Source: a virus
Reading direction: 5' to 3' (one strand)
IMG/VR virus record: IMGVR_UViG_3300025849_000173
Span: 1 to 27,338 of that record
Length of the DNA stretch: 27,338 nt
This document shows, piece by piece, positions 4,914 to 26,803 of the stretch (positions are counted from its first letter, which is position 1; the number at the start of each line of letters is the position of its first letter). A model generated the notes under the pieces. It saw only the letters and a program-made list of their open reading frames with translations, had not been told where the DNA came from and ran no database searches. A program made the translations under genes and the position numbers.

Positions 4914-5178
4914 CGTTATATACTTCTTCAGTGGTTCTATGTTTATCAGATTTAAGCATTGCTCCTCTTACATTCTCCCCAAACTCACACATCACCTCTT
5001 TCTCTTTCTCAAGCCCCTTTACCTCAATACTATTCATTAGTAATTCAAAAGCCCATATCATACCGTCATAATACTCTATGTTTTCGGGTACTGCGTGTTT
5101 TTTCTTAATTATCTCATCTCGCCACCAAACTAATAGTTCGTAATGCTCTTGCATTGGTGTTAGTTTGTTCTCACTCAT
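4888..5178 (-). CDS. Hypothetical protein (96 aa)
   Basis: The product is an acidic, mostly helical 96-residue protein (HYELLVWWRDEIIKKKH ... YYDGMIWAFELLMNSIEVKG). I do not recognise it. It starts directly after the second copy of the shared 26-base leader. Its last seven codons are the first copy of that leader, so the C-terminus is partly dictated by the regulatory sequence of the next gene. It lies in a run of small genes typical of the early or accessory part of a phage genome. Confidence 0.75.
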   Translation of the reverse strand: MSENKLTPMQEHYELLVWWRDEIIKKKHAVPENIEYYDGMIWAFELLMNSIEVKGLEKEKEVMCEFGENVRGAMLKSDKHRTTEEVYNETFKTKEK

Positions 5179-5200
5179 TTCTCTTTTGTTTTAAAGGTTT
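5175..5200 (-). repeat. Shared 26-base leader, copy 2
   Basis: Identical in all 26 bases to the elements at 4888-4913 and 5391-5416. The stop codon TAA of the upstream gene falls inside the element (CCTTTAAAAC), and the element ends at the ATG of the 96-residue gene. Confidence 0.8.
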
Positions 5201-5394
5201 TTATTCAGATAAGGCAGTTCAACAAACTTCACATCAGCCTTGTCAATGACTAATCGCTTACCTCCTTTTAACTGAATATAGTATCTACTATCATCCCCAT
5301 ATGTCTCGTAATACATTGCATTTTCAAATGTGTGAATAGTACCATCATTGAACATCACACTAATGTCTATTGGGTGTAATTCCTCTTCTTTCAT
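5191..5394 (-). CDS. Hypothetical protein (67 aa)
   Basis: The 67-residue product looks like a small beta-rich fold (ISVMFNDGTIHTFENAMYYE ... YYIQLKGGKRLVIDKADVKFVEL). I do not recognise a family. It is the first gene after the 170-base non-coding segment with tandem repeats and starts after the third copy of the shared 26-base leader, so its transcription probably starts in that segment. Its stop lies inside the leader of the next gene. Confidence 0.75.
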   Translation of the reverse strand: MKEEELHPIDISVMFNDGTIHTFENAMYYETYGDDSRYYIQLKGGKRLVIDKADVKFVELPYLNKNL

Positions 5395-5416
5395 TTCTCT
5401 TTTGTTTTAAAGGTTT
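5391..5416 (-). repeat. Shared 26-base leader, copy 3
   Basis: Identical to the copies at 4888-4913 and 5175-5200. This is the only copy that lies wholly outside an upstream coding region except for the start codon. It ends at the ATG of the 67-residue gene. Confidence 0.8.
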
Positions 5417-8866: not shown

Positions 8867-9232
8867 TTAAAATGAAAAATCATGGTATTCGTCCATATAC
8901 CCGAACACAATACTTATAGGATACCACTTGCTATTGTTCCATTCGTTTCCGCCTTGGTATCTCCACTTACCCCACTTAAAGCGAAGCTCCGTGGTATGGC
9001 CCGTGCGCTCAAACTTGTAATCCTGGGATTCAGCCATACCTCTATCGTCAGTGCGTATAGGTTTAGCTTTTTCTATTACGCATCTCTTGCCATCTTTCGA
9101 CACCTCATTAACGAAGTATGCGTGGCGGTCAGTCCACATTAACTCTGTGGCCCCTTTTCCTACTACTGGAGGTGTAGGGTTATTGCTTATCAAGTGGTTC
9201 ATTACAGAACCGGTTTCTGTTCCTAATTTCAT
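8867..9232 (-). CDS. Conserved phage hypothetical protein (TDRHAYFVNEV family)
   Basis: The 121-residue product begins MKLGTETGSVMNHLIS and contains PVVGKGATELMWTDRHAYFV. These patterns recur in a small family found in many phages and some bacteria, with unknown function. The rest looks beta-rich (TTELRFKWGKWRYQGGNEW). The leader AAAAACGAGAGACT resembles the leader of the 73-residue gene upstream. A 22-residue hydrophobic mini-gene ends on this start codon (ATGA). Confidence 0.75.
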   Translation of the reverse strand: MKLGTETGSVMNHLISNNPTPPVVGKGATELMWTDRHAYFVNEVSKDGKRCVIEKAKPIRTDDRGMAESQDYKFERTGHTTELRFKWGKWRYQGGNEWNNSKWYPISIVFGYMDEYHDFSF

Positions 9233-9297
9233 AGTCTCTCGTTTTTATTTATGGTTAGTAACAACAAAAGTAAAATTGGTAAAAGTGCCATAGTCAT
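9229..9297 (-). CDS. 22-aa hydrophobic micropeptide, coupled on both sides
   Basis: ATG at 9297 overlaps the upstream stop as TAATG, and the stop TGA overlaps the next start as ATGA. The product is MTMALLPILLLLLLTIN plus KNERL: one hydrophobic helix with a charged C-terminus. The double coupling and exact fit between two real genes argue for translation. It is too small for family assignment; it could be a membrane micropeptide, or a translated spacer that only serves coupling. Confidence 0.5.
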   Translation of the reverse strand: MTMALLPILLLLLLTINKNERL

Positions 9298-9518
9298 TAA
9301 ATTAAAGGTGATGTTTTGACGATCTCTGGTAATACCTCCAGACATTCTTTCTTTGTAGAGTACAAAGTGTCTAATTTTTCCGTGTTCAATTCCAGGTCCA
9401 GTGTGCCGCTTATGATCTCCCACACCAGTGTTCCACTAATAAATTCAGAAACGTTCCGTACCTCAATTATATGGCCGTCACAGTTTGTCTGATAAAGTCC
9501 TTTGCTAATTTTTGTCAT
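9297..9518 (-). CDS. Hypothetical protein (73 aa), first gene of the leftward run
   Basis: I place the start at 9518 rather than at the far ATG at 9572, because AAAACGAGAGATC directly precedes it and matches the leader at 9232, and because the longer form would run through the promoter-like region and the DnaA-box-like dyad end. The product begins MTKISKGLYQTNCDGHIIEV and looks beta-rich. No family is recognised. It is divergent from the DnaA domain IV gene, so both are probably controlled from 9519-9681. Confidence 0.65.
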   Translation of the reverse strand: MTKISKGLYQTNCDGHIIEVRNVSEFISGTLVWEIISGTLDLELNTEKLDTLYSTKKECLEVLPEIVKTSPLI

Positions 9519-9541
9519 GATCTCTCTCGTTTTATTATACT

Positions 9542-9572
9542 GCAATTTAAGAAACGCCTGGGACATATACAA
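9542..9572 (-). promoter_or_regulatory. Possible leftward promoter
   Basis: Minus strand TTG (complement of 9570-9572), 20 bases, then TAAATTGC (9549-9542) partly fits TTG-N17-23-TAnnTTTG. It is placed well for the 73-residue gene, but the -7 box has two mismatches. Confidence 0.3.
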
Positions 9573-9575
9573 CCT

Positions 9576-9597
9576 TTTTCCACAAAAATGTGAAAAT
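9576..9597. promoter_or_regulatory. Inverted pair of DnaA-box-like 9-mers
   Basis: TTTTCCACA at 9576-9584 fits the DnaA-box consensus TTWTNCACA at every position. The complement of 9589-9597, ATTTTCACA, fits at 8 of 9. They face each other across four A residues, forming a dyad in the divergent intergenic region. A third near match, TTGTACACA, lies at 9637-9645. Binding has not been shown. Confidence 0.55.
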
Positions 9598-9621
9598 AAT
9601 CTGCGTTCACTCTTTAAACCT

Positions 9622-9629
9622 TATATTTC
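9622..9629 (+). promoter_or_regulatory. Possible rightward promoter -7 box
   Basis: TATATTTC differs from TAnnTTTG only in the last base and lies about 50 bases before the DnaA-like gene. The -33 match (TCTG at 9600-9603) is weak. Confidence 0.25.
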
Positions 9630-9681
9630 TTGGGCGTTGTACACATTATTGTTAACTTCGCTCTTCCTAAATTTCATGCAC

Positions 9682-10140
9682 ATGAACAAAATACAAGTCA
9701 ACAAGCTGATTGACAAGGTCAACGAATATTTCAGCGTAGACATGAGAGATAAGACCAGAAAACGTGATGTCATTGACATACGCCACACCTTCATGTACTC
9801 ACTGCGAAATAGAGGTTATAAGACTGCGGAGATCGGTGGATTCCTGGACAAGGATCACGCAACTGTTATACACGCTTCCAGGAAGGTAAGAGACTTGATT
9901 TTAGTTGAAAGAGATATGTCACGCCTGGTAGCTGCAATGGATGAAGTTATAGACAGCTACATACTTGAAGAGAAGATATACAGCAGAGGAGGCAATGTAG
10001 ACAACTACGAATCAGTCAGGGTAAACTTGTGCCGGGTACTTGAGAAGTTTTGTGATAGTGAAGAAGAGCGGGCGCACTGGCTGTCGAAATCTCACATATC
10101 AATTGACGAGTACAAGAGCTTTACTTCTCGTTTTTTGTAG
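9682..10140 (+). CDS. DnaA domain IV-like DNA-binding protein (no ATPase domain)
   Basis: The 152-residue product, starting at ATG 9682 (9676 is an alternative), is the only rightward gene. Residues about 25-72 match the C-terminal DNA-binding domain of DnaA: RDVIDIRHTFMYSLRNRGYK, then TAEIGGFLDKDHATVIHA, with the DHATVIHA signature that contacts the DnaA box. There are no AAA+ or domain I/II segments. The remaining 80 residues are helical and unrecognised. It could bind an origin, compete with host DnaA, or act as a repressor. It starts about 85 bases from the DnaA-box-like dyad at 9576-9597. Its last 20 bases overlap a convergent small gene. Confidence 0.85.
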   Translation: MNKIQVNKLIDKVNEYFSVDMRDKTRKRDVIDIRHTFMYSLRNRGYKTAEIGGFLDKDHATVIHASRKVRDLILVERDMSRLVAAMDEVIDSYILEEKIYSRGGNVDNYESVRVNLCRVLEKFCDSEEERAHWLSKSHISIDEYKSFTSRFL

Positions 10141-11236: not shown

Positions 11237-11390
11237 CGCAACCGTATACTCTTGTGCTATCTAAATAGCTATTATCAGGATTCCCATTGATTAGATAACC
11301 AGTCTCGTAGTCCTTTTTGTTCTTTTGGACCAGTAAACCGGCAACAGCCAGCAACAAAAAGAAAATGATTGCAACTCTAAACTCCTTCAT
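11229..11390 (-). CDS. Small single-pass membrane protein (53 aa)
   Basis: ATG at 11390 overlaps the stop of the receiver gene as TAATG. The product has an N-terminal membrane helix (VAIIFFLLLAVAGLLV, about 6-21) followed by a polar, probably periplasmic tail ending in VYGCGD. Tight coupling on both sides, with GTGATTAG at the 3' end, makes it very likely real. It may be an antiholin-like or accessory membrane peptide; function is unknown. Confidence 0.65.
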   Translation of the reverse strand: MKEFRVAIIFFLLLAVAGLLVQKNKKDYETGYLINGNPDNSYLDSTRVYGCGD

Positions 11391-11827
11391 TATCTATAAA
11401 CTTTAAATGGGTTTTTTTTATTAACGTATCCTTCGTAGTCGCTGTGGAATTCCTCAAGTCTTGGTTCAATATCGTCTGACTTGATAATCCAAAACTGTGC
11501 GCCTACAGCTTTAGCTTTTTCTATTTCTTCTTGGTCAGAGCTACTTGATATAATACCTATAACACATCCATTGCCGTAATCTGTGTTTATCTTACGTATC
11601 ATTTCAATGCCATCGAAGGAAGATCCAATAATATTTAGATCTACAAATACACATTGTGGACGTTCATGATCTGGATCATCCGGAAACCATGCTTTAAATT
11701 TTTTATCAGCTTCATCCGAGCTGTCTAAAGACTCTATAGACAAAGCTATATCAAGCATTGAACAAGCATCCTCAAACACCAGGTGAAATAAGTTCTCGTC
11801 ATCTATGAGCATTAATGTATCAATCAT
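11390..11827 (-). CDS. Stand-alone response-regulator receiver (REC) protein
   Basis: The 145-residue product is a CheY-like receiver domain with no output domain. Key positions are intact: the acidic pair D9/D10 (MLIDDEN), the phospho-acceptor D63 (CVFVDLNIIGSSFDGIEMI), the Ser/Thr position in GIISSSSD (94-97) and K116 in FWIIKSDD. A short C-terminal tail (about 123-145) follows. It is coupled to the histidine kinase gene by ATGA (11824-11827), so the two form a cognate pair. Lacking a DNA-binding part, it would act by protein contact, perhaps with one of the membrane proteins in the operon. Confidence 0.88.
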   Translation of the reverse strand: MIDTLMLIDDENLFHLVFEDACSMLDIALSIESLDSSDEADKKFKAWFPDDPDHERPQCVFVDLNIIGSSFDGIEMIRKINTDYGNGCVIGIISSSSDQEEIEKAKAVGAQFWIIKSDDIEPRLEEFHSDYEGYVNKKNPFKVYR

Positions 11828-12723
11828 AATTTTATATATACTTTCGTACCGTTAGTAGTTTTTTTAGCAAACACATTGTATCCGTGTTCTTTTAATATTT
11901 CAATAGATATGTTTAAGCCTAATCCAGTTCCAGATTCTTTCTGTCCTTCTCTTCTGGTGTATGGTTTGGAAAATTCTATAAACTCTTCTGCTGTGATTCC
12001 TCTACCGTTGTCTTCTACAACAATAAAAGAACCAACATGATAGCTGCCTTCATGGTATATTTTTACCCACTTTGTTCCGCTATCATTATACTTTAACCCA
12101 TTCCTTATAAAATTATCCAGGGCGGTACAAAATAATGCCTCATTAATATCTAATGCATCTGGCAAGTTATCAGATAAGACAACTTGATTTTTATATGCTG
12201 TCAGTTTTAAATAGTTCGTCAATACATCCTTTACGTTACACGTAGCTTTGTTTAGCACTGCGTTCTCCTTCACCAGGTTCGTAAACTCGTATACACCAGC
12301 ATACACTTTCTGGGCATGGTGTAGTCCATCTTCAATAAGCTTTAAAGGTGCGCTAATCCGTAAGTCTTTAATGTTCTTATTAGTAAGCCTACGGTTTAAT
12401 GATTTTATACCTCTTGGTAAATAGGTATTGATACCGCTATGCATATCATGACGTATGATTTTAGCAGCGTGTTCCAGGTATATATTCTTTTTACCCAGAT
12501 CTTTCTTGATCTCTGCTTTGTTTTGCAAAAACTCTTGCACCACCATAAAAAACGGAGGCATAAAAGCAATTACAGATAGCCATTCAAAATAGTGAGTAAA
12601 GGTTGAGTGGTGTATGTATTTAAATACAACAAGTGTCTTGAACACAAAAAAGGTTAGCATAATCAGTGTAGAACAAATCAAGCATACTATTGATCTTCTT
12701 GATATGCCATCCAAAGCGTTCAT
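11824..12723 (-). CDS. Membrane sensor histidine kinase
   Basis: The 299-residue product has two N-terminal membrane helices (about 10-36 and 47-66) with almost no periplasmic loop. A linker and the phosphoacceptor region EHAAKIIRHDMHSGIN follow, where H92 in the HD pair is the likely site. The catalytic domain shows an N box with N208 (ALDNFIRNGLKYN), G1 box DNGRGI (238-243) and G2 box GTGLGLNIS (265-273). All boxes look functional. With only a short loop between helices, sensing is probably within the membrane or through partner proteins. It overlaps the upstream DUF2892-like gene as TAATG and the receiver gene as ATGA. Phage-borne histidine kinases are rare. Confidence 0.9.
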   Translation of the reverse strand: MNALDGISRRSIVCLICSTLIMLTFFVFKTLVVFKYIHHSTFTHYFEWLSVIAFMPPFFMVVQEFLQNKAEIKKDLGKKNIYLEHAAKIIRHDMHSGINTYLPRGIKSLNRRLTNKNIKDLRISAPLKLIEDGLHHAQKVYAGVYEFTNLVKENAVLNKATCNVKDVLTNYLKLTAYKNQVVLSDNLPDALDINEALFCTALDNFIRNGLKYNDSGTKWVKIYHEGSYHVGSFIVVEDNGRGITAEEFIEFSKPYTRREGQKESGTGLGLNISIEILKEHGYNVFAKKTTNGTKVYIKL

Positions 12724-12914: not shown

Positions 12915-13065
12915 TCTTTTCTTTTTGCAGCATATACCAGCGTTGAGCTGTATACCCTATCGATATTAGTAACAGTGCGATCTTTAAACCAACTTCTACT
13001 GTAGCCATGGATACTCCAAAGCTGAAAAAATTTACAAACAATAGTTTTAAATCTGTCTCGTTCAT
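12904..13065 (-). CDS. Small phage membrane protein (53 aa)
   Basis: ATG at 13065 overlaps the stop of the holin-like gene (ATGA). The 53-residue product has an N-terminal amphipathic stretch (ETDLKLLFVNFFSFGVSMAT) and one strong helix (GLKIALLLISIGYTA) followed by a basic tail. The FVNFFSFGVS...VEVGLKIALLL.SIGYT pattern is familiar from small proteins next to lysis genes in phages of Bacteroidota. A different frame at 12911-13099 is longer but has poor composition and is rejected. Confidence 0.7.
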   Translation of the reverse strand: MNETDLKLLFVNFFSFGVSMATVEVGLKIALLLISIGYTAQRWYMLQKEKNDE

Positions 13066-13286
13066 TGTTTAGCAAACTTCTCCAGGCCAGCAATCCCAAA
13101 CGAACCCAAGGTTATATATACAAAACTGTTGTATGTAAACTCATTAATAGGTAAATCCTTACCTATAGCACCAGTAACAACGTCAGCGATCATTACCAAA
13201 ATCATAACAGCAAAACTCAAGAATCCAATAATAGTCTTCTCGTTCCAGGTGTTATCTATTTTAAATATCTCAAAAAACTTTTTCAT
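13062..13286 (-). CDS. Holin-like small membrane protein (74 aa)
   Basis: The 74-residue product has a basic, amphipathic start (MKKFFEIFKIDNTWNEK), a strong helix GFLSFAVMILVMIADVVTGA (about 21-40) and a second weaker helix near the C-terminus (VYITLGSFGIAGLEKF). Two helices, small size and position after the DUF5675 gene suit a holin or an antiholin; this is positional inference. The start lies four bases after an exact TATCTTTG box. If that box is used, the mRNA would be nearly leaderless for this gene. Confidence 0.6.
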   Translation of the reverse strand: MKKFFEIFKIDNTWNEKTIIGFLSFAVMILVMIADVVTGAIGKDLPINEFTYNSFVYITLGSFGIAGLEKFAKQ

Positions 13287-13290
13287 AGGT

Positions 13291-13320
13291 CAAAGATAAG
13301 GGTTATATCAAAGGTCAAAA
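13291..13320 (-). promoter_or_regulatory. Candidate Bacteroidota promoter before the holin-like gene
   Basis: Minus strand TTTTG (13320-13316), 17 bases, then TATCTTTG (13298-13291) matches TTTG-N17-23-TAnnTTTG exactly. It ends only four bases before the ATG, implying a leaderless transcript or use by genes further on. Confidence 0.45.
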
Positions 13321-13760
13321 TCAGTGTAAGTAATCTCCACATCCTCGCCAGATTCCAGTGCAGCAGCAATGCCGGGATACACCCTCTTGTAAGCATCAAC
13401 AGAACTTCCAATAAAACCTTTGTAGTCCGAGCTGTTCCCTACCAACAAACATCCACTGGTGTGTTCATCAGTGTTACCGGTGTGGATCAGGATGTACTCA
13501 AAGCCTGGAACGTCACGTACCCATAGCATTCCCTTGTGCATACTACCGTACTTCTTTTCGTATCGACCGTGAAAGCCGCCTACAGTACGTAGTGTGATCT
13601 TGTAAGTACCAGCTGGGATTCTGGTTTCGTGCATTACCTTTTCTTCTCTGTACTCATCTTCCAATGTGTAACAGAGGAACTTGCGCCCCTCCGTTACATC
13701 AAGCAACATACCTAAAGTATAATCATCGGAAGTGTGGTATCTAATTACCTCTAATTTCAT
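13308..13760 (-). CDS. DUF5675 protein, probable cell-wall (endolysin-like) enzyme
   Basis: The 150-residue product fits DUF5675: FLCYTLEDEYRE near the start, ETRIPAGTYKITLRTVGGFH, then GFEYILIHTGNTDEHTSGCLLVG (about 87-109). The H-x-G-N ... S-x-GC pattern is reminiscent of the YkuD L,D-transpeptidase active site, with the Cys of SGCLLVG as a possible nucleophile. DUF5675 is common in Bacteroidota and their phages, often near lysis genes. An enzyme activity is not proven. It overlaps the giant gene as ATGA and leads the lysis-type run. Confidence 0.72.
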   Translation of the reverse strand: MKLEVIRYHTSDDYTLGMLLDVTEGRKFLCYTLEDEYREEKVMHETRIPAGTYKITLRTVGGFHGRYEKKYGSMHKGMLWVRDVPGFEYILIHTGNTDEHTSGCLLVGNSSDYKGFIGSSVDAYKRVYPGIAAALESGEDVEITYTDFDL

Positions 13761-16700
13761 TCTTCACTTTCTTTTAGTTGTTCTTTTAATCCTTTAGCTC
13801 CTTCAACTGTAAGCTTCAAGAACTCTTTATACCATTCGTTTTTCAACTTAACAGATCCAAATATAGGATCACGTGAAACAACGTACTGCATCTTGCGTGT
13901 GTCTGCGATTACGCCCTGGATCAGCTCTACCTTACGATCGTCTTGCGCTTCAGCGTAACTGTCAGTAGCCATTAGACTCTCAACGTTCTTGGTTAGATCC
14001 TGGTAATACATCTTTTGGATTCTGGTTAAATCCTTTTCTTCAAAGCGCATCTTAACCTTCTCGCCCGGTCCGAGCATCGATACAATCTCATTGTATGTTT
14101 CAGAACCCAAGTCTGTTTTTGTAGGACTGTAGTAATAGCTTGTGATCTTGCTTGGCGCAGAAGGTAGCCATGATCCATCTCCGGTGGCTGTCATCAATCT
14201 GTGGTACTCACGGATTACTGGATGAGGATCTACCTCTTGACCTTTCAGAACACTAAACATATGGTAGTAGTATGGGTTCTTTCCTTCAGGTGTTTGTAGG
14301 ATGTCTCGCCCTACCATGTCTACTCTGGATGGGTAACCTTCCACGTTAAAGGTCTTGTCTAAAAGGATGTACTGCATTCTTCTGGCAATATCCTTGTTAC
14401 GGAATATAGGCATATGACTACGGTTAGCACGGTTAAAAGCACTGATTGTGTTTGGCAGTGCTACACTGGTTACTGATCTAAACCAGTTATCAATGTTTCT
14501 TTGCATTTCGTAGCCTTCTTCATCACCAGCGATCAAGCTTAACAAGCTGTTCGCACCTTGCAAGAAGCTCATAGAGTTGATGAACTTAAATGTACCGGTC
14601 ATCATAGCTGGGTTAAAGTAGTTGATCATAAACTGCGTATCAAACAAGCTGTCCTCACCTGGAGCGTACCAAATGTTCTTCTTGCTCTTCGCTGTATGAT
14701 CTAAACCTTTAGTTGCTGTAGCTCTTGCGCCCATCACAACACCAATAATACCAGACTTATCAATCTTCATCCAGTTATCTCCTTCCTGGAATTGTAGATC
14801 TTCTTCATTGAAAGACAATAGGTATCTACGGATAGCTGTTTGGTTTACACGCATTGGACCACCAGTGTATGCGTACTGCAATGACTTTTCTTCTTTGTCC
14901 TCATCAGTGAATGCACCAATGATAGCACCAGCAGCAATTAACAGATCGGCAGCCTTAATCATCATTGTACCTACGATAGCCATAGAAAGATCTTCGTTAC
15001 CTTTCTTGTGGTTGCCCTGGCTGTAATTATACATTGCTGACATAGCCCCAACACCAGGCATAGCAATCTTCATTGTAGAAACAAATATGTTTGCTGGTGT
15101 CTTAACGTATGGCATAAACGAGTCAAACAAGAAGCCCATCATTCTTCCAGGAATAGTTCCCTTTCCTTCTACAATTTTTCTAAACTGTAGGATTGCATTA
15201 GAAGCTGTGTTCTTCTCTTGGAATGTAGCACGTTGACCTTCACGAGACATCTTTGTTACGACATCTTGAGGTGGGTATTTCAAGAAGTTTTGGAACTCAT
15301 CAGTATCAATTGCAGCTCTACCAAATCTCTTGATCGCCTCATTGTATACTACGAATGCACCAGAGAACCTACTGAACGGTAAATCACCCACTGCTAATGC
15401 ACGGAATACGATGTCCGGTGCAATACCAAACATACCCTCGATCATAAGCTTCACTCTGTCTCCAGGCTTAACCTTACCTTCTTTGGTTCGTGGTAACACA
15501 TCAGTGTTAATCAGATCCATCTTAAATACCTTCTTCAAGTAATCACCCAGTCTGGTATCTGATACTGCGGCAAACATTGCAAACATTGGATTGATACCGG
15601 TGTGTACAATCTTTTGCGTTTCGCCTTGCTTAACAAACATACCTTTAATAGATTCTGCGAATCCTAATGCACCTTGCTTCATAGCGTATGGCAATGCAAG
15701 TAGTGTTACACCAGCCTCACGACCGTAGTATTCTTTAACACCAACATCTTTGCCCAGGTATTTAGATACCAGTCTACTTGCTTTGAAAGACAAGAAGTGT
15801 ATAGCTCCTTCTATAGGGCGTTGGATTATAAATCTACCTTGCTCAAATATGTTTGCTACAACGTTAGTGACTAATGATACCGGAGTCATAAGGTTACCCT
15901 TGATGAATGTACCAAATAGGTTGCTGTATCTTTTAGGAATCAGAGTAGCTGTAATCTTGTTTAGTGTTCTGGTTACGTTATCCAGAGCTTTAGACAGCTT
16001 GGTAAACTCTTTTGTGAACTCCGCAGAATCCATAGTCCCAAAGTTAGCCTGGTGATCTATGAGCGCACGCTGTGCATCCATAAACTCCTGGGCAATCTTC
16101 ATGAGGTTCTGGCGTTGAGCATCTGTCATTCTACGTCCAGCTTTACCCATAGCAGACTCAATCATTTGCACGATACCAATTGGTGTGCTTGTTTTGAGTT
16201 CAGCAAAGTGGCGCAGCATACGACCAACTGTTGTACCAACTTTAGCAAGAGCTTCAATAGCATCGGCAGTGTCCTCACCGTTGGCTTGCATTCTGTTTAT
16301 GCGCTCAATAGCAGCAAGTACATAGATGTTGTCGTTACCGTTCTCTGGGTTCAAGCTCAAGTTAACCAGGGCATTGTCCGTCATGATCATGATTAGATCT
16401 TCATCAGACATCTCTTCCAGGTTACCTTTAATTGCTTCCAGGTTCTGTTGGTTGATGTAGTTCTTTGGGTTGTCAAAGATCTTCTTGCGAACATCAGCTT
16501 CACTATCACCTAACGAGTTGGCAAAGCGTTGCGCTGTTCTACGCATATTTAGTGTTTGATCGTCCAGAATGTTGTGGCTTTCATGACCGCTTTCATCAAT
16601 ACTAAACTGCAATCCGCTTTCCATCACCTGGTTATGCGTAGCTTCAATTTTAGCTGGGTCTGTAGTTACCCTGGTTGGCACTACGAATCCTTCTACACCT

Positions 16701-19700
16701 ATACCAGGCACAGTGTGTAGATCCCAGGCTGTTTCTGCATACTCTATTTTACCACGAGCATAAGCACGATCACCAATAAGGGTTACCTCTTCAGCAAACT
16801 TGATTGGTCTACCGGTAACATCCATAAACATATGTGATGCCATTGGATTGTACTTGATCATTACACCGTCAAAGTTTGTGTTCTCTCTTGGTGTATCTAC
16901 ATACTCACCATCTACAGAAGCAAGTGGGAACTTGTTCTTTGCAGTTGGGTACAGTTCTTTTATTTGCTTTGGATCTAACTTCTTGACAAAACGGTTATGC
17001 AGCATTGCACCAACCTCTGACGATCCCTTCACATTTACGTTGAAGTAAGCGTTACGCAGTGTCATCACATCTACGTTTCTAACCACCTTCTCACGAGCAA
17101 AAGTAGTCACACCGTTGTGTTCCTGGTACTTCTTGCCTTTTTGGTTAGATGGCTTGTGAACAGATAGAATAGACATTCTGTATCCATACTTCTTTTGTCC
17201 AGCATCAAGAAGGTTAAGGTTTAAACGGCCACCAACTAAATCGCCTGGATTCAATGGAGCATTCTCATCTAATATCTTCTTACCAGCTTTATGCCCCTGG
17301 ATCACATCGTTTATCTCATCAATGTTTGGTAAATCAATGTCACGTTCACGATACAATGGACTTTGCTCTGCTTGCATCTCTGTAACAGCCAGTGATTCCT
17401 GGATAGACATTGCACCCTCCATTGATTCTTCTGCTACCTCTTCTAATGTGAATTGAGCAAAACTACCATAGCCTGGCATTTCCCCAGTGTCAGAACCAGA
17501 TTTGTACAAACCACCAGGTTCAATATGAACTACATCTAAAAGGTTAACGCTTTGTGCATCAAGACCTTCATAAGAAGCTATAGCTACAGCTTTTAATGCT
17601 GGCTTATCGTTACCGAATAAAATGATGTTGTTTCCGTACTTACCAACTGTGCGCTCAATCATCAATCCAATATCTTCAGCGGAAGCAGCAGCATCAAGAA
17701 CGGCTATACGAGTGATTTCGTTTGCCTGGTTCATTACAATATAACCAAGCTTTGTCGTGTCACTAACCTTAAAATGAGATAAGAATTTTGGTACATAATT
17801 TGAACCTCTTATCTGAAGTTTATCCGCTGTTCTTGGTCTAAAGAGTTCTTGACGGTTAAAGTTCTGTACTTTAACATTCTTGAAGCCAGTTTGCTTTTCA
17901 TACTTCTGTAGTGTGGTAAAATCAGATTGGAATGTATAAAAAGACCCTATTTGACCTTTGTCAAATTCCACATATTTACCAGAGTCAAGGTTGATGATAA
18001 CACTGTTACCAACTTTTACATTAGGCTCTTTGTTGAATATCTCTAAAAGCTTTTTGTGCATTTGAAGATCAGCTGGTGAAGCTTTTAAGCTGCCCGAAGG
18101 ATGATTATGTACAAGTGTTACTTCCGCATCAACATCAACACCGTATGTCTCTTGGAAATTGGTAACAATCTGTCTTACTTTCAAAGGATCTACCGAAGCA
18201 CTATTAACAGTACCGGTAGTCATATAAGTGACATCGTAGTTTTTTGGATTGTTTCTATCACGAACCACCAAGAATGTACTCTCTGAAGACTCACTCTCCA
18301 TATGGCGAAGCAAGAATGCAATATCCCCTGGATGTTTAATCACCTTTGGACCTTCCAATTCCATTACTGGGTTTTCATTCATTCTACGCTCCAGGTAAGT
18401 TTTAGCTTGTACAACGTGTGGTTGCATCGAGCTGTACTCAACATCACCTAATCTACTCCCTAATGAGTAATTGTTGAACTCCTCATCCAGGTGGAAGAAA
18501 GTGCTTGTTACTTCTTGCCCGGCACGGACTTGGTTGATTGCTTTTCTGACCCCTTCGAGGTCAGCTTCTTGATTTGCTGTGCCAAAGCTTTCATTTCCTT
18601 TTGCGATAGATTGTCTAACAGACTCATGTCTGAAGTCGAGTTGTTCAATTGCATTGTCTATGTCTTTTTGTTTAATTCCTTTTTCTCTTGCCACCTCGCT
18701 TGCACCGCTAAAGTAGTCTGGTTTTTCCTCTTCGCTTGTAAAGTCTTTCGCAGAGCTTATTGAGTTTTTAGCCTGGAACGTTTGATACAAGGCTTTCTCT
18801 GGATACCAGTTTACAGCCTGGAGATCAGCAATTGTAATACTGATACCATACTTGCTAAACAATCTGTTTTGAAGATCTTTGAAAACAGTTTCCATGAACA
18901 CACGCTCCGTACCAGTTGAAGGTGCTTCTTTCTCACCCTTTAGATTCTTAACGTGGTTTCTCGCTGCTTTTCTTAATTCATTAAGCTGTGGTGTTGACTG
19001 TAATACAGCAAGGCGATCTTTATTAGCTGTAGCTGAAGCAACCTTGCGAGATAACTGATCTATGTCTAAATCAGATGCATTCTTTTTAAGGTCAAATGCC
19101 GGGTTAAACAGCTCGTCTATAAAGTATGGCTTCTTGCGTGACTTCATTGCGCCAAGCTTCTTGCGATCACTTTTGCGTAGCTTTGTAAGAGCTTTTATAA
19201 ATCGCTCTTCACCTGATTTTGTAAGAGCTTCACTTCTTGCAATAAGAAGATCACCACGCAAACGACCAAACTGTCTTGTCAACCAACGGTCAATAGTCAG
19301 TGTCTGGAACTCACCCATCAGGTTCATAAAGAAACCATTACCAATCTTTGGGCCAAAAATAGCAGCACCAAACAACATATGATCAACTGGATATTGAGGG
19401 CTTAAGTTTTGTTTCTGTTTCTTCTCCTTACCAGTCTCTTCATCAATAACAGTAATAGTAGCGGACATATCTCCGTTACGAACCGGAGTAACCAGGAACT
19501 CAACAAAGTTCTCAATGCTCATTATATCTAAAGCCTCATTGATAAATGCAAAAGCATTGGACATAGATCCTCCTTGCGCCCCTTCAACCAGCTCTGGATT
19601 GAACTTGCCGTTCTCACGGAAGTATTCGTATTGTTTTATAGCCAGTGCAAAGTTTTGTTTGACCTTCAATCCGTTTGAAGAAATAGCAACAGCCATCTTC

Positions 19701-22700
19701 ATGATCGCAGCAAGATCTTTATCCGCTTTGATCTCTGGGTATATCAACTCAACTACGGTCATCGCTTTTGTAACCGTCTCATCGTACCAGCCAATCGCAT
19801 CTGGATAGGCTTTCATTGCAACTAACGTTTCAAGCTCAAATGCATCTGTCAAATAATTCATCAGTGCCTGATCCATTGCATAGTGCATCAATCCATCTGG
19901 ACCTTTTTGCAAAGTAAGACCGTACTTATTAATAATTTCATCACGCCTTGGGTCTTCGTGAAGCATTTTTGTCAAAGCTTCTTTAAACTCAACGTTTGTT
20001 GGGATCGCTGCTTGATCTGCAAACGATAGCGCATTGATGATAGTGATAGGGTTCTCCTTGGTCACATCTGGCACATCAGCAGCAAAGTCTGTGTCCAGGG
20101 TAAACGAAGTAGCGTTACCATCTTCAAAGAATTTTTTAGTCTTGTCTGTAACAGAGAAACCAAGAGCCTGGAAAGCACCGCTGGTAGGATCAGCGAAACG
20201 GTTGAAGATCTCAATTGGCTTAACTTTATTTTTGTTGTCAAACCTCTTAATTTGTTTTTGAGTAATTCCAGGCAACACATCATCATAGAATTTTGCTGGA
20301 CCCTCACCGCTTCTGCCCCATCTTCTTTTTTGGAAGTATCCTGGAACCCATGCGACATAATCAAATCCACCTTTAGCACCCAGTTGCGCTGCAACACGCA
20401 TACTCATGCCAGCCCAGTCATCCGTTCTGTTTCCGTATGGAGTGTAAGGCATTAGCGGAACACCGCTTTGATCATCTGCTATTTTGTTAATTAAAGTATC
20501 TACTTCTTTAGCTGATAAGTTAGATACCTCTTTGTGGAAAGTAGAATCAAACGTTAACTCTATATCTTCTAAAACAGTTTCTGAACTACGGTAAGTCATG
20601 TCAGGGTTAAAATCAGTGTCATAGTCACGGATGTTAATACCTAAAGAAGGAAGAGCTTCTGACAAAACAGAAACCATTTGTTCTCTTGTTCTGTGTAGAT
20701 CTTTTAAATTTTGCTTACCATTTACAATGCGCTCTCTGGTTATGATCCTTTGGTCATATGTTTCAGGAGTAATCTTTTTAATAACTTCTTGGTACTCTTT
20801 AAATGCTGTAGTTATTTTGTCTGTTTTTTCCAGGTCAAGATTATCTTGTAAAACACTATGCACTCTACGATTAAGAGCCGAATCTAAATCTTCATTAAAA
20901 CGTGATCCAACATAATATTCTACATCTACTACGTTTATAAAATCTCTACCATTAAATAAATTTCTGTCGTTTTTTCCTACAGCTTCATTTATTGCTGAAA
21001 TCTCCGTTGGAGAATTTCCATAACGCTTATCTATAATTTCGGCTGTAAGACTTAATACATCTTCGGAATTTCGAGAAATACCAACAGTTTCTGCCACATC
21101 CATATATGTAACAAGTCCCGATGAAAAAGCTGTAGTATTATCACGATAGCTTAATAACTTTTTGGTAAGGAAGGCAAGGTTATTATTAAAAAATATTCTT
21201 TCTGATTCTTGTTTAATTCTTGGTCGTAAAGAAGTAATCGTATTATCTATTTCGTCAAAATATTTTTCATGTTTTGATCGTGTTTCTAAATACGCTTTAT
21301 TTACACCAGACTTTTTGTAAAAATCGTACAAAATCTGATTAGTATATTCGTTTGATTTTCTTACCTCCTCGGAAGCGAGCTTCAAACCTACCACAAAAAC
21401 CTCTAATGGATTATTAACAATATAATCATTTAGATCGTCTGCATACTTCGCCCAAGAGTCCTTACTGTCTTTTTCGTTCAACTCAATATTAGTTGCCCTT
21501 TCAGAGAAATTATTTAGTAATTGAGTTACAGTGAAATTTCTTGGCTCTACAACGTGTTTCACAGCCTCGTCAAGAGGTCTTTGAAACATCTGGTACTCAT
21601 GATTTAGATCAACCAGCTTTTTATTGTCCGATTGTAGTGGATTCGCAGACATCCCTTCTTTTCTTGCACTCTGACCCCAATCAGACTGAACCTCATCTAA
21701 CAACAAAACACGACCGCCATCCGCTGCTGTTGCTTCTGCTGACCTTATGAATGAAATAACGTTTGCATTAGAAAAATGCGTGTTGTTTCTAAATGTTTCT
21801 GTTTGCTTTAAGAAACCTTCTGGGTGTTGAATAAGAATCTCGCTGTAGTTTGTACCAGCTACACCAGCGGCTGTACGTGATTTTTCTGAAGCAATGCTAT
21901 ACATTTTATGACGGCCCAGTCCACTTGTTTCTGGTGAAATTCTTGCAAGTGACATAGCCTCGGCTCTCGTAAGTCCAGTACCGACATTAATTAACAGTGA
22001 ATTGCTTTTTACTACAACATCTTGTGGGTCTGGCTCATCATTGTCTTCTATACGCTGTGACTGATATTCATATACAGCATCAAATCTGTCTCTTGGATTA
22101 ATAGAATTTAACTCATTGTACTCTATTATTGGAATAATTTCATCCTCAAGGGAATCATAATTATCATCGTCATAAGCTTCTTCTATAGCATTTAAAACAA
22201 AATCATCAATATTGTCATCAAAAATATCTTTCAAGTCAATAGACATATAGGCGTAAAGCTCATCGCCATCAGGCATATCAACTGTTCCTAAAACCTCTAT
22301 CATATAATTTCCATCGTCAAAAGATTCGCCACGCGTAATACCCATTACCTCCTCTATTTTCATTGGATAAGAATGAGTGCCGTCAAACTCTAATTCATCT
22401 GGAGCAAGGCGTAATGTAGGAGTTGTTAAAGCCGGGTCTGTTGCTACCGGTCCTAATGTATTAGGAATAACAACTACACCGTTTTTAGGATCGTAGTAAG
22501 CCTCTGCCCACCGCAACATACCTAAAGGCGCATCAACAGAAACCTCAATTGCATTGTCTTTAACGTAATTCTGGATAGCGGCAAAAGGGATACTCTTTGC
22601 CCCTGGATTGTCTAAAATATATTGCTCTAAAAAACCACGGAGATTGATAGTTTCTGCCTCAACAGACCCACCTTTAACTTGAGAAAAATACTTCATCCAC

Positions 22701-25700
22701 TGATCTATTGAAGCAGATTTCATTTTTAACGTTTCCGGGTTTAATGACTTCATCAAAGCTGAATCCAAAAACAGCTTTTCAGTGATCATATCTGATTGCG
22801 GCTGTAATGGCAATAACTTTCCAAGATTACTTACTTGATCGTTAAACGTTTGTTGAGCAACCTGATCAAAGAAATAATAGTCTGTGATCTCAATAGTAGG
22901 ATCGAGCTTTTTATGAGTTTTATACATCTCAAAATGAGCAATACTACGATCATTTACATAGGCCGGATCAAGACCCATGGTTATTGACATCAGTGAAGAT
23001 CCATCATCTTGAGTAACGCCAGTAAGTCTAAAAAGTTCATCATAGTTATCAATCCCTCCAAGGTTAAACCCAGAACGATTAACAACATCTACTAATGATT
23101 TTAGTATTGGATAATTACTTATTCTTAAATCTTCTGGTAATTCGTGATCTTGTTTGGTTCGGTGACGGTAAAGAACATCACTAAACAATTGTCTTGGATA
23201 AGATCGAAAAGGAACTAACGAGCTTTTATCATATCTTTTGAAAGCAGCTTCTGTGAATGCAGCAATTTCTTTACGGTAAGCTTCAACCGTTTGACGTATA
23301 TTAGGTTCTTTGGCATTTTCCTCAACAGCCAATACTTCTTTAGCAATTATAAGTTTATCAAGCTGTTCTTGTAAAATACCATATGCAGTAGAGGCATTGT
23401 CAAGAGCGTTTCTACCTAAATCATATACGAAATTTACATCCGCATAAAGAGGTGAAGCATCACCGTCATTTAATTTTGCCACTTTATTAAGCTTTGCTAA
23501 TAAAGTATTCATTTTGTCTACCTTAAAGACCGGCATAGTAGATTCAATAATCCTTAATTGGTAGGCGAGCTGACGGCTGTGGTATTTTGCAGCATCGACT
23601 ATTTTTACCGAAATACTATTTCTTAAATCTTCTTTTTCTGCACTTGTAATTGGTGGCTCTCGGTCATATCTAACTGCTGAATAATACTCATTTTGTAGAT
23701 CCTCAATAGTCTGGTCAAGAAGATCTTCTCTGGTTTTATTTTCAGTCTTTAGATCGTTTGCTTTTTGTACAGACAGTGAGCTGCTTAAGAATCCCATAGA
23801 TTGGCTTAAAGCATTGGCAGCTATATCGTTCAGTCCTAATGTTTCTTGATCGTTAAAACTGGTCAAGTTTTTATCTATTGCATCGCCAACATCCTTAATA
23901 CCGGCTAAAGATAGTATTTGGTCTACACGATCTTGATCTGTGGTGTTAGGATCATATTCATCGGCAATAAGTGTAAACACAATATCATCAATGCTGTTTT
24001 CAGTATCGATGTCCGCAGCCAAAGGAACTGGTGCTTCGGTAGTGGTAGGTGCAGTTTTTGCACGTTTAGCTTTAGCCTTTGCAACGTCAGCTTGTTGTAT
24101 GTCACGACCAAACTGTACCGTAGAACCTAAACGCATTGCATCAGATAAGTTCTTTGCAACAGTAAACAGATCGGCATCGTCCTGGATCTTAATATCAGTG
24201 TATCCAGAACTTATTAAAAAATCATTGATCAGGTTCTTGATGCGATCCAACAGCTTTGGTGTATCACGTCTTAATGATTCCAGGTTGTTACCACGAGTCA
24301 TCAACGCCAGGAATTCAGTAAGTGTTTCGTTCCTACGAGTGTTCTCGTCAAAGCCTTTCTCGTCAGTGTACTTCTCTGAAAACTTCAAAGCCTCACGAGC
24401 AAACACATTGCCAGCCGCAGCTTCTTTTTCAATCTCTGCAAACAAACGCTCTTGCGCTAACGGATCTGTCGTTAGCATCTCACTGATTGCAGTGTGCAAT
24501 ACTTCGTGAGCATATGTCTTACCAGCTGAACGATCTGTTCCAGCGTGCTGGTTGTATAGTCTAAAAGCTTGTGGCGAAAGAACGTGAATAGTCTTCTTGC
24601 CTCCCTTTTCTGTCTTTACATAAGCAACACCTCTGGTCTTACCTTTTGACTCACGGAACAGTTTACGAGCCTGGCTATCAGAGTTCATCAACGAACGTAG
24701 CGAGTTGTGTACCACAACCTTTGCTTTGCCCTTACCTTTTACGATACCAAAGATTCTTGACATTGCACTGGCTTCACTCTTGGTGATTCCATTCTCTGCC
24801 TTTACTTGACCGTCCTCGTATTCTACTGAATCGTTAAGTTCTTCAGTGTACTCTTCGTTGATTTTAATATTCTTTGGACTATGCTCTTGAGCAGTAATAG
24901 CTCTACCAGCATACTCTTCTTCCATCACATTTTTATCCTTGATTAAGTCACGGATAACGTTGAGCTGGTTCTTCTTTGCATCTGCATCTGATAGTGAATA
25001 GTAAGAGTTCAATGCAGTACTCATATCCTTATGGATCTGGCGCATTGTTTCTTGTGCTTCTTTAGGCATCGCAGCGTAAATAGGCATAGATGCAGCAGCA
25101 ATATTTCTTTGTTTCTGACCAAGCTCAACAATACGATCTGTTATCTTTTGGCGATCGTACTCGCTCATGTTGTCCTTAAGCTTTGCATTCAAGCTTTGGA
25201 TTTCATCGCTTACATTCTTAAACTCCTTCATGTTGGCAATGGATGCCATACCGTTCATTCCAGAAGCCAACATCTGTGGTACAGCTACAGTACCGCCACC
25301 CATAATACCACCAATGATAAAGCTCTCTAATACATCACGAGGATCTGTAACTTCACCAGAAATCATATAAGCTAATACACCGTTAGTCAGCTCAACACCA
25401 ACTTCCTCTAAACCTTCTGATAAGAACTGCTCACCAGTCTGTACAAATGGGCGCATTTTAGATTGCTTGCGTAATTCTTTTAATGCTTTAGTGCGTGCTG
25501 TTTTCTTTGCTCCAGCACCAGCAGCATCAATAGCTTCGTCTATACCCAGGGCTTTACGAGCTAAACGAATATCCGTCATAGTGATTTTCTCAAACAAATA
25601 TTCAGAAGCAGCGGACACAACAGTAGTAGTTACCTTGTCAGCAACGGTCATGTCCAATCTGTTACGCACATCCATGTAGGATGCCGTACCAGCAGAAACA

Positions 25701-26803
25701 CCACCCACGGCTAAACCAACTTCTGGAGCCATAATAGTCATTGCAATTTGCGGGAATTGCTCTGCCATGGTAAGACCTAAAGAAAGCGCACCCTTACCAA
25801 TCTCACCGTCCTGGAACAGCTCGGTAAATGAACGTGTGTCTTTTGGATCAAGACCAGCTCTTAATTGTGCCGTTGCTCTACCTTCAGCAATTGATGTTTT
25901 AGCACGACCAGCATAACTCTCTGGTGCGCCAATAGCATCCATGACAGTACCATATAAATTGATAGCTGTACTTGTACCAAAGTTCATTGATGATAATACC
26001 GGTGCTGAAATTCGGTCATAAACATCTTGTGTGAATCCAGGTAGTTTGTTTTTAGTTGCCTCTGCATTAATAGCATCTTCGATACCTACCTGGTTACGAA
26101 TAAAGTCAGCCTGGGCATTCATACCGCCCAGGTAATCGTCTACTTGTTTTCTCTTTTCTGGATTAGGACGTAGGATACCTTGCTCGTCCTCTTCGTATAA
26201 GTTGTAGTCAAAACCAAAGTGATCGTTCAAGGCTGCGTTTGCAGCAACACGGTCATCACGTCTTGATTTTTGATAGTCAATATCTTGATCTAACTCTTTC
26301 TCTTGCTCTGCTCTCTCTACCTCAACGTTTATGTTGCCAAGCACCACACCAAAGCCAAGCCCACCTGGTGTTGATGAGCCTCTAACAAAACCGCCAATGC
26401 GCTTTGCACTTTTCTCAAAGAAGTTTAACGGATCGGGATCAGCAGACTTAAGTCGGTCGTTAAGGTCTTGAGCTGTTTGAGCTTGCTGGTCAGCAAAGTT
26501 CATCAAAGGCTCTCTGTTGTTAACGAAGTCGGCTTTAGTTAAATCATCCGGTACTAATTCCGAATCGGATGTATCGGTTGATTCCAGATTTGACGTAGGA
26601 ACATTGAATGCCCCAGAATCCACTTGCTCCGAAGTAGAAGGAACATCCGAAACGAATTCCGGTCTTTTTTTTTTAATGTCAGACAAGGCTTGATCAATAG
26701 ATAATTGATCGTAACCATTGAATGCCATAATAGATTCAACTTCTCCGTAAGATAATCCTTCGTTGATTGCTCGGTCTATGAGCTTGAGAACTTTATCGTC
26801 CAT
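13757..26803 (-). CDS. Giant polyvalent virion/ejection protein (4,348 aa) with zincin and RadC-type JAB domains
   Basis: One uninterrupted frame takes up nearly half the window. In order: a short helical motif (1-50), an acidic Ser/Thr linker, hydrophobic segments near 340-370 and 490-515, a metallopeptidase motif HEVLH (766-770) with ETLTEF some 60 residues on, a long helical part, a polyvalent-protein domain around 1370-1420, DEVQSDW (1703-1709) and its likely partner GFDYVAW (2146-2152), an all-helical segment with LTIDRW (2502-2507), a RadC-like JAB domain with HNHPSG and S..D (2899-2912), a conserved YNP...RAYARGK block (3318-3352) and a C-terminal region like LPD38 (about 3620-4345) with a membrane-like helix near 3935-3960. 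I see no cysteine in it. It most likely rides in the virion and enters the host with the DNA. Its single ATG follows a hairpin. Confidence 0.85.
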   Translation of the reverse strand: MDDKVLKLIDRAINEGLSYGEVESIMAFNGYDQLSIDQALSDIKKKRPEFVSDVPSTSEQVDSGAFNVPTSNLESTDTSDSELVPDDLTKADFVNNREPLMNFADQQAQTAQDLNDRLKSADPDPLNFFEKSAKRIGGFVRGSSTPGGLGFGVVLGNINVEVERAEQEKELDQDIDYQKSRRDDRVAANAALNDHFGFDYNLYEEDEQGILRPNPEKRKQVDDYLGGMNAQADFIRNQVGIEDAINAEATKNKLPGFTQDVYDRISAPVLSSMNFGTSTAINLYGTVMDAIGAPESYAGRAKTSIAEGRATAQLRAGLDPKDTRSFTELFQDGEIGKGALSLGLTMAEQFPQIAMTIMAPEVGLAVGGVSAGTASYMDVRNRLDMTVADKVTTTVVSAASEYLFEKITMTDIRLARKALGIDEAIDAAGAGAKKTARTKALKELRKQSKMRPFVQTGEQFLSEGLEEVGVELTNGVLAYMISGEVTDPRDVLESFIIGGIMGGGTVAVPQMLASGMNGMASIANMKEFKNVSDEIQSLNAKLKDNMSEYDRQKITDRIVELGQKQRNIAAASMPIYAAMPKEAQETMRQIHKDMSTALNSYYSLSDADAKKNQLNVIRDLIKDKNVMEEEYAGRAITAQEHSPKNIKINEEYTEELNDSVEYEDGQVKAENGITKSEASAMSRIFGIVKGKGKAKVVVHNSLRSLMNSDSQARKLFRESKGKTRGVAYVKTEKGGKKTIHVLSPQAFRLYNQHAGTDRSAGKTYAHEVLHTAISEMLTTDPLAQERLFAEIEKEAAAGNVFAREALKFSEKYTDEKGFDENTRRNETLTEFLALMTRGNNLESLRRDTPKLLDRIKNLINDFLISSGYTDIKIQDDADLFTVAKNLSDAMRLGSTVQFGRDIQQADVAKAKAKRAKTAPTTTEAPVPLAADIDTENSIDDIVFTLIADEYDPNTTDQDRVDQILSLAGIKDVGDAIDKNLTSFNDQETLGLNDIAANALSQSMGFLSSSLSVQKANDLKTENKTREDLLDQTIEDLQNEYYSAVRYDREPPITSAEKEDLRNSISVKIVDAAKYHSRQLAYQLRIIESTMPVFKVDKMNTLLAKLNKVAKLNDGDASPLYADVNFVYDLGRNALDNASTAYGILQEQLDKLIIAKEVLAVEENAKEPNIRQTVEAYRKEIAAFTEAAFKRYDKSSLVPFRSYPRQLFSDVLYRHRTKQDHELPEDLRISNYPILKSLVDVVNRSGFNLGGIDNYDELFRLTGVTQDDGSSLMSITMGLDPAYVNDRSIAHFEMYKTHKKLDPTIEITDYYFFDQVAQQTFNDQVSNLGKLLPLQPQSDMITEKLFLDSALMKSLNPETLKMKSASIDQWMKYFSQVKGGSVEAETINLRGFLEQYILDNPGAKSIPFAAIQNYVKDNAIEVSVDAPLGMLRWAEAYYDPKNGVVVIPNTLGPVATDPALTTPTLRLAPDELEFDGTHSYPMKIEEVMGITRGESFDDGNYMIEVLGTVDMPDGDELYAYMSIDLKDIFDDNIDDFVLNAIEEAYDDDNYDSLEDEIIPIIEYNELNSINPRDRFDAVYEYQSQRIEDNDEPDPQDVVVKSNSLLINVGTGLTRAEAMSLARISPETSGLGRHKMYSIASEKSRTAAGVAGTNYSEILIQHPEGFLKQTETFRNNTHFSNANVISFIRSAEATAADGGRVLLLDEVQSDWGQSARKEGMSANPLQSDNKKLVDLNHEYQMFQRPLDEAVKHVVEPRNFTVTQLLNNFSERATNIELNEKDSKDSWAKYADDLNDYIVNNPLEVFVVGLKLASEEVRKSNEYTNQILYDFYKKSGVNKAYLETRSKHEKYFDEIDNTITSLRPRIKQESERIFFNNNLAFLTKKLLSYRDNTTAFSSGLVTYMDVAETVGISRNSEDVLSLTAEIIDKRYGNSPTEISAINEAVGKNDRNLFNGRDFINVVDVEYYVGSRFNEDLDSALNRRVHSVLQDNLDLEKTDKITTAFKEYQEVIKKITPETYDQRIITRERIVNGKQNLKDLHRTREQMVSVLSEALPSLGINIRDYDTDFNPDMTYRSSETVLEDIELTFDSTFHKEVSNLSAKEVDTLINKIADDQSGVPLMPYTPYGNRTDDWAGMSMRVAAQLGAKGGFDYVAWVPGYFQKRRWGRSGEGPAKFYDDVLPGITQKQIKRFDNKNKVKPIEIFNRFADPTSGAFQALGFSVTDKTKKFFEDGNATSFTLDTDFAADVPDVTKENPITIINALSFADQAAIPTNVEFKEALTKMLHEDPRRDEIINKYGLTLQKGPDGLMHYAMDQALMNYLTDAFELETLVAMKAYPDAIGWYDETVTKAMTVVELIYPEIKADKDLAAIMKMAVAISSNGLKVKQNFALAIKQYEYFRENGKFNPELVEGAQGGSMSNAFAFINEALDIMSIENFVEFLVTPVRNGDMSATITVIDEETGKEKKQKQNLSPQYPVDHMLFGAAIFGPKIGNGFFMNLMGEFQTLTIDRWLTRQFGRLRGDLLIARSEALTKSGEERFIKALTKLRKSDRKKLGAMKSRKKPYFIDELFNPAFDLKKNASDLDIDQLSRKVASATANKDRLAVLQSTPQLNELRKAARNHVKNLKGEKEAPSTGTERVFMETVFKDLQNRLFSKYGISITIADLQAVNWYPEKALYQTFQAKNSISSAKDFTSEEEKPDYFSGASEVAREKGIKQKDIDNAIEQLDFRHESVRQSIAKGNESFGTANQEADLEGVRKAINQVRAGQEVTSTFFHLDEEFNNYSLGSRLGDVEYSSMQPHVVQAKTYLERRMNENPVMELEGPKVIKHPGDIAFLLRHMESESSESTFLVVRDRNNPKNYDVTYMTTGTVNSASVDPLKVRQIVTNFQETYGVDVDAEVTLVHNHPSGSLKASPADLQMHKKLLEIFNKEPNVKVGNSVIINLDSGKYVEFDKGQIGSFYTFQSDFTTLQKYEKQTGFKNVKVQNFNRQELFRPRTADKLQIRGSNYVPKFLSHFKVSDTTKLGYIVMNQANEITRIAVLDAAASAEDIGLMIERTVGKYGNNIILFGNDKPALKAVAIASYEGLDAQSVNLLDVVHIEPGGLYKSGSDTGEMPGYGSFAQFTLEEVAEESMEGAMSIQESLAVTEMQAEQSPLYRERDIDLPNIDEINDVIQGHKAGKKILDENAPLNPGDLVGGRLNLNLLDAGQKKYGYRMSILSVHKPSNQKGKKYQEHNGVTTFAREKVVRNVDVMTLRNAYFNVNVKGSSEVGAMLHNRFVKKLDPKQIKELYPTAKNKFPLASVDGEYVDTPRENTNFDGVMIKYNPMASHMFMDVTGRPIKFAEEVTLIGDRAYARGKIEYAETAWDLHTVPGIGVEGFVVPTRVTTDPAKIEATHNQVMESGLQFSIDESGHESHNILDDQTLNMRRTAQRFANSLGDSEADVRKKIFDNPKNYINQQNLEAIKGNLEEMSDEDLIMIMTDNALVNLSLNPENGNDNIYVLAAIERINRMQANGEDTADAIEALAKVGTTVGRMLRHFAELKTSTPIGIVQMIESAMGKAGRRMTDAQRQNLMKIAQEFMDAQRALIDHQANFGTMDSAEFTKEFTKLSKALDNVTRTLNKITATLIPKRYSNLFGTFIKGNLMTPVSLVTNVVANIFEQGRFIIQRPIEGAIHFLSFKASRLVSKYLGKDVGVKEYYGREAGVTLLALPYAMKQGALGFAESIKGMFVKQGETQKIVHTGINPMFAMFAAVSDTRLGDYLKKVFKMDLINTDVLPRTKEGKVKPGDRVKLMIEGMFGIAPDIVFRALAVGDLPFSRFSGAFVVYNEAIKRFGRAAIDTDEFQNFLKYPPQDVVTKMSREGQRATFQEKNTASNAILQFRKIVEGKGTIPGRMMGFLFDSFMPYVKTPANIFVSTMKIAMPGVGAMSAMYNYSQGNHKKGNEDLSMAIVGTMMIKAADLLIAAGAIIGAFTDEDKEEKSLQYAYTGGPMRVNQTAIRRYLLSFNEEDLQFQEGDNWMKIDKSGIIGVVMGARATATKGLDHTAKSKKNIWYAPGEDSLFDTQFMINYFNPAMMTGTFKFINSMSFLQGANSLLSLIAGDEEGYEMQRNIDNWFRSVTSVALPNTISAFNRANRSHMPIFRNKDIARRMQYILLDKTFNVEGYPSRVDMVGRDILQTPEGKNPYYYHMFSVLKGQEVDPHPVIREYHRLMTATGDGSWLPSAPSKITSYYYSPTKTDLGSETYNEIVSMLGPGEKVKMRFEEKDLTRIQKMYYQDLTKNVESLMATDSYAEAQDDRKVELIQGVIADTRKMQYVVSRDPIFGSVKLKNEWYKEFLKLTVEGAKGLKEQLKESEE
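20460..23900 (-). other. AT-rich internal module of the giant gene
   Basis: Hand-counted 60-base lines inside this span run about 23-33% GC (lines at 20521, 21181, 21241, 22141, 23461, 23821), while lines outside reach about 38-52% (14641, 19261, 20401, 24061, 25081). It corresponds to residues of about 970-2115. The edges look sharp, which suggests module exchange or insertion. Confidence 0.55.

Follow-up and report, generated by a model that had tools for sequence, protein, structure and literature searches.

Phages of Bacteroidota commonly encode stand-alone DnaA_C proteins. In Polaribacter phages P12002L and P12002S such a protein is named "replication initiation protein DnaA" (PMC4615864). 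A literature search on phage stand-alone DnaA domain IV returned annotation mentions only, and no experiment was found behind the "replication initiation protein" label. The residues by which this domain reads DNA are described for E. coli DnaA, where R399 inserts into the minor groove at TTA and TnCACA is recognised by the helix that starts at residue 434 (PMC5742627). This analysis is concerned with a protein of the stand-alone kind, with domain IV as its only recognised domain, and with the DNA upstream of its gene. The window is the whole of IMG/VR virus record IMGVR_UViG_3300025849_000173, with a length of 27,338 nt.

The window encodes a terminase large subunit (phrog_6681) whose relatives belong to podovirus-like phages of Flavobacterium, Cellulophaga and other Flavobacteriia, which suggests that the host is a Bacteroidota-type bacterium. 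A search for close relatives among bacterial genome contigs gave no host, only a general likeness to Bacteroidota DnaA, and searches with the DnaA_C gene, its DNA and the neighbouring exonuclease gave no close phage record. Nearly all window genes are leftward. The sequence-only reading had called the DnaA_C gene the only rightward one, and all listed non-overlapping genes around 9676-10140 are indeed leftward.

Several other features of the window were noted. A two-component pair of the phage is encoded leftward at 11390-12723. One gene specifies a response-regulator receiver protein (PF00072, E 1.8e-7), the other a membrane histidine kinase (HATPase_c, E 1e-13); the two share 4 bp, and a DUF5675 gene and genes for small membrane proteins lie nearby. 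A single leftward open frame of 4348 aa at 13757-26803 occupies nearly half of the contig and resembles a giant virion-associated polyvalent protein. The small leftward gene at 8867-9232 has relatives with 81-85% identity in ten contigs (L343-L352) in which no further window gene was found, and it is probably a mobile small gene.

A stand-alone DnaA domain IV protein

The gene at 9676..10140 (+) encodes a protein of 154 aa, with an alternative in-frame start ATG at 9682. Residues 9-71 (9700..9888, +) match Pfam Bac_DnaA_C (PF08299) with 47 bits against a cut-off of 31.5 (E=2.6e-12), and the DHATVIHA signature occupies residues 60-67. The AlphaFold2 model has a mean pLDDT of 88.5, rising to about 97 over domain IV. 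Its best fold matches are the DNA-binding domain of M. tuberculosis DnaA with box DNA (3pvp, Z 12.9) and E. coli domain IV with box DNA (1j1v, Z 12.2), while the best unrelated row scores Z 5.6. The C-terminal part, residues 79-154 (9910..10137, +), has no family match in profile searches; four helices are predicted there at lower confidence, and its structure was also predicted on its own.

Two features of the DnaA initiator can be compared. The helix-turn-helix of domain IV is present, with R28, D60 and H61 as the equivalents of the contact residues R399, D433 and H434. The AAA+ domain III and domain I are absent, as domain IV begins at residue 9 of 154. Profile searches identified no second domain, AAA+ included, and the NCBIfam DnaA model gives 39.6 bits against a cut-off of 343.9. 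Thus, the earlier description of a DnaA box-binding domain without ATPase domains is borne out by both the Pfam match and the predicted fold.

The recognition residues of the window protein are R28, R30 and R36 together with D60, H61, A62 and T63. Across 49 distinct phage DnaA_C proteins, the R399 equivalent is kept in 46, H434 in all 49 and T436 in 48. In addition, the window protein and Bacteroidota host DnaA share the motif KTRKR...KDHATV without a difference, and over a longer stretch the window's KTRKRDVI...R...KDHATVIHA is almost the same as the host KTRKREVVQ.RQ...NKDHATVLHA. The contacts for a DnaA-type box thus appear to be present, and since the recognition residues are conserved, the phage protein most likely binds DnaA-type boxes. 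Because these residues coincide with those of Bacteroidota DnaA, both proteins should read the same site.

The upstream boxes and their conservation

Boxes were scored against the bacterial consensus TTWTNCACA, which may not be the Bacteroidota box: no box clusters were found at Bacteroidota dnaA loci, and genome-wide box pairs in four genomes were uninformative. The rescan returned the letters and positions claimed previously for three sites, namely TTTTCCACA at 9576..9584 (+, 9/9), the inverted ATTTTCACA at 9589..9597 (-, 8/9), four bases from the first, and TTGTACACA at 9637..9645 (+, 8/9), which lies at -39. A further site, TCATGCACA at 9674, overlaps the start codon. The site at 9576 is the only 9/9 match in the 27-kb contig, which also contains 61 sites at 8/9. 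The cluster at the DnaA_C gene, with one 9/9 and three 8/9 sites at 65% AT, is the densest of the contig, and 57% of whole-window Markov shuffles contain a cluster of four sites in 150 bp at some position. By itself, therefore, the cluster is unremarkable in the window; together with its place beside a DnaA_C gene it is suggestive. Dinucleotide shuffles within the region gave P ~0.006 for the cluster and P ~0.004 for a 9/9 site plus the count.

The exact 22-mer dyad was scanned against all IMG/VR contigs and has one match, in contig L342. A search with the protein alone, which took no account of the dyad, led to that contig again (as L355) as the sole full-length orthologue in IMG/VR; because the two routes are independent, the conservation of the dyad is not an artefact of how the contig was discovered. 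The two DnaA_C proteins are 49% identical over their full length and their genes 59% identical in DNA. Synteny between L342 and the window extends from g5564 to g13308, with amino acid identities mostly of 60-96%. The distance from the dyad to the DnaA_C start is 79 bp in both phages, and a 32-bp block around the dyad (9569..9600) has zero changes relative to L342:7619-7650. Among the exact matches of the syntenic region this run is joint longest; coding DNA there is 59-85% identical (85% in the exonuclease gene). A run of this length arose in 0.06% of trials when the columns of the intergenic alignment were shuffled (P ~0.0006).

The sites outside the block were also compared. The -39 box is TTGTACACA in the window and CTATTCACA in L342, so its letters differ at a constant score of 8/9; retention of the box property, and not of the precise letters, would give this pattern. 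L342 has an additional inverted pair at -127/-115, which gives five near-boxes there and four in the window, each set within about 130 bp at 65-70% AT. The L342 upstream region is likewise clustered in the same shuffle test (P 0.0003). Loss of the boxes while the gene was kept would have told against the sequence-only reading; the opposite was found, the dyad being identical in L342. As the collections searched contain no second full-length orthologue, its conservation is that of a single phage pair. From this comparison, the dyad is probably a real site.

The block could also be kept for another reason, such as binding of an unrelated phage repressor or sigma factor, or a role in a leader, with its likeness to DnaA boxes due to chance. 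The frequency of equally dense clusters in the whole-window shuffles would allow this, as would a second 32-bp block at 13291-13322 that is equally conserved in L342 and contains no box. However, the block at the DnaA_C gene has the only 9/9 box and its inverted partner at its centre, both phages carry a further box at -39, L342 has more at -115/-127, and folding gave only a weak RNA hairpin or terminator at the dyad (hairpin z -0.5). A chance likeness is accordingly rated improbable. As a separate observation, the leftward gene 13062-13286 is preceded, within the block at 13291-13322, by TTTTG-N17-TATCTTTG, which comes close to a perfect Bacteroidota-type promoter.

Upstream boxes are not a rule of the phage DnaA_C family. 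Among 125 distinct phage DnaA_C genes, 76 sites scoring at least 8/9 were found in the 200 bp before the start, compared with 67 expected. Family-wide conservation was rejected in this set and also in sets of 49 (25 sites and 22.8 expected) and 82 (38 and 44). Box clusters elsewhere in three related contigs (L092, L094 and L141) looked like scattered near-matches and not arrays. Three phages with terminases 90-98% identical to that of the window (L003, L004 and L006) also carry a single DnaA_C gene, oriented against their terminase gene, and no boxes were found upstream of these genes in their short shared intergenic region. From these contigs the dyad was at first judged not conserved. This view was dropped, as the tree places their DnaA_C proteins in another clade (100/99 support), with 22-23% identity to the window protein, so that the genes are non-orthologous, and as the dyad and protein searches give L342. 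Because phages with such similar terminases carry a non-orthologous DnaA_C gene, genes of this type are exchanged between lineages. Some phage contigs each carry two different DnaA_C genes (L084/L085 in MW202828.1, L171, L258 and L317), and a 692-aa open frame with DnaA_C at its C-terminal end (L168:870-2946) is a possible fusion.

The divergent region and its possible functions

Two divergent starts flank the dyad: that of the DnaA_C gene is about 90 bp away, and that of a small leftward gene at 9297..9521 (-) about 65 bp away. In L342 an unrelated gene takes the place of this neighbour, with the leader and the dyad retained. The region thus has a conserved operator-like site, with the 32-bp block identical and at the same distance. 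A possible Bacteroidota-type promoter, TTG-N20-TAACTTCG, may lie at 9630..9660 (+); it agrees at 7 of 8 positions with the consensus TAnnTTTG (PMC9723704), is conserved in L342 and is proposed tentatively. The -39 box sits between its two elements. Repeated leaders were also observed at leftward genes, AAAACGAGAGA before g9297 and g8867 (9523-9535, 9233-9245) and CTTTAAAACAAAAGAGAA before g5191 and g4888 (5178-5199, 5394-5416), the latter kept in L342 too.

The results favor a phage DnaA-box-binding protein that would act at the dyad 9576-9597 and the box at 9637 to regulate transcription of its own gene and of the divergent leftward neighbour, a reading to which a probability of about 0.5 is given. 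Domain IV and the short helical C-terminal part would together form a phage DNA-binding protein, which would bind chiefly the 22-bp dyad and the box inside the likely core promoter. Binding would control transcription in both directions, and the protein would probably serve the early or replication programme of the phage. Autoregulation is favored because the dyad lies between the two divergent starts. The simplest reading of the dyad is an operator for autoregulation, by analogy with full-length DnaA, which uses a promoter box to repress its own gene (PMC8203912). The sequence-only reading had suggested a phage origin, autoregulation or interference with host DnaA. The second is strengthened by the position of the dyad and its retention in the orthologue, the first is its main rival, and no direct support was found for the third.

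In the main rival, the divergent region is a phage replication origin or part of one, with the DnaA_C protein as an initiator in the style of lambda O that would bind the adjacent boxes and recruit the replication machinery by its C-terminal helices. The near-boxes and AT content of the region in both phages are consistent with this, and initiator genes often adjoin their own origin. In addition, the DnaA_C genes of relatives are annotated as replication initiation proteins and lie near primase/helicase or helicase-loader genes: for example, a DnaC-like loader is found near DnaA_C in Freya_1, and primase/helicase genes are found in tooticki6-1 and beside the L092 gene. However, the region contains a single full-consensus box and no iteron array was found in it, and most family members have no nearby boxes. 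In the profile search of this 27-kb fragment, a RecE-type exonuclease 2.3 kb away was the only replication gene found beside the DnaA_C gene. The GC-skew check proposed with the sequence-only reading is confounded by gene strand bias: the skew is negative throughout the window except over the rightward gene, and apart from the local change caused by that gene it does not turn at 9.6 kb. An origin here is thus possible but rather unlikely, and it would be compatible with autoregulation at the same place.

Two further explanations involve the host. The dyad may be a site for host DnaA. The phage promoter would then respond to host DnaA or make use of it, in competition with the phage domain IV. 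The fit of the box to the bacterial consensus and the coincidence of the phage and Bacteroidota recognition residues would both agree with this, while no box clusters that would confirm the host consensus were found at Bacteroidota dnaA loci; this explanation is considered unlikely. Alternatively, the protein may inhibit host replication by occupying oriC boxes. A domain IV without AAA+ should compete if it binds host boxes, but such a function would leave the conserved dyad upstream of its own gene unexplained, and it is regarded as very improbable. A more speculative reading, which we consider doubtful, is that the phage has taken a Bacteroidota-type box-reading domain as a dedicated regulator with a true DnaA-box dyad as its operator. 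Host DnaA and the phage protein would then read the same site, and the early programme would be tied to the state of host replication initiation.

Comparison with known systems

The window protein shares its fold and box-contact residues with bacterial DnaA (1J1V and 3PVP). It differs in having no domains I-III, and so no ATP switch, oligomerisation or helicase loading of the DnaA kind, and in its different helical C-terminal part. A bacterial stand-alone DnaA_C family (PRK06030 / NF004686, 151 aa with DnaA_C at the end) is a weak match (E 0.02), and the window protein falls far under its cut-off (14.7 vs 148 bits).

The protein also resembles the small domain IV-only proteins of Flavobacteriia phages (Polaribacter Freya and Danklef, Flavobacterium tooticki6-1 and Tenacibaculum Gundel_1), which have the same fold and are about 25-33% identical to the window protein over the domain. 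The protein thus belongs to a known and annotated, apparently uncharacterised kind. The settings of the genes differ. Those of the Flavobacteriia phages lie inside co-directional replication/recombination operons and no such dyad was seen upstream of them, whereas the window gene stands alone on the opposite strand with the dyad before it. As far as the searches show, a conserved DnaA-box dyad at such a gene would be a new part. The phage pair provides a concrete, conserved candidate DNA target beside the gene, so that function can be tested directly with one protein and one short DNA. For the many Bacteroidota phages that carry lone DnaA domain IV proteins, the dyad turns an annotation into a testable claim.
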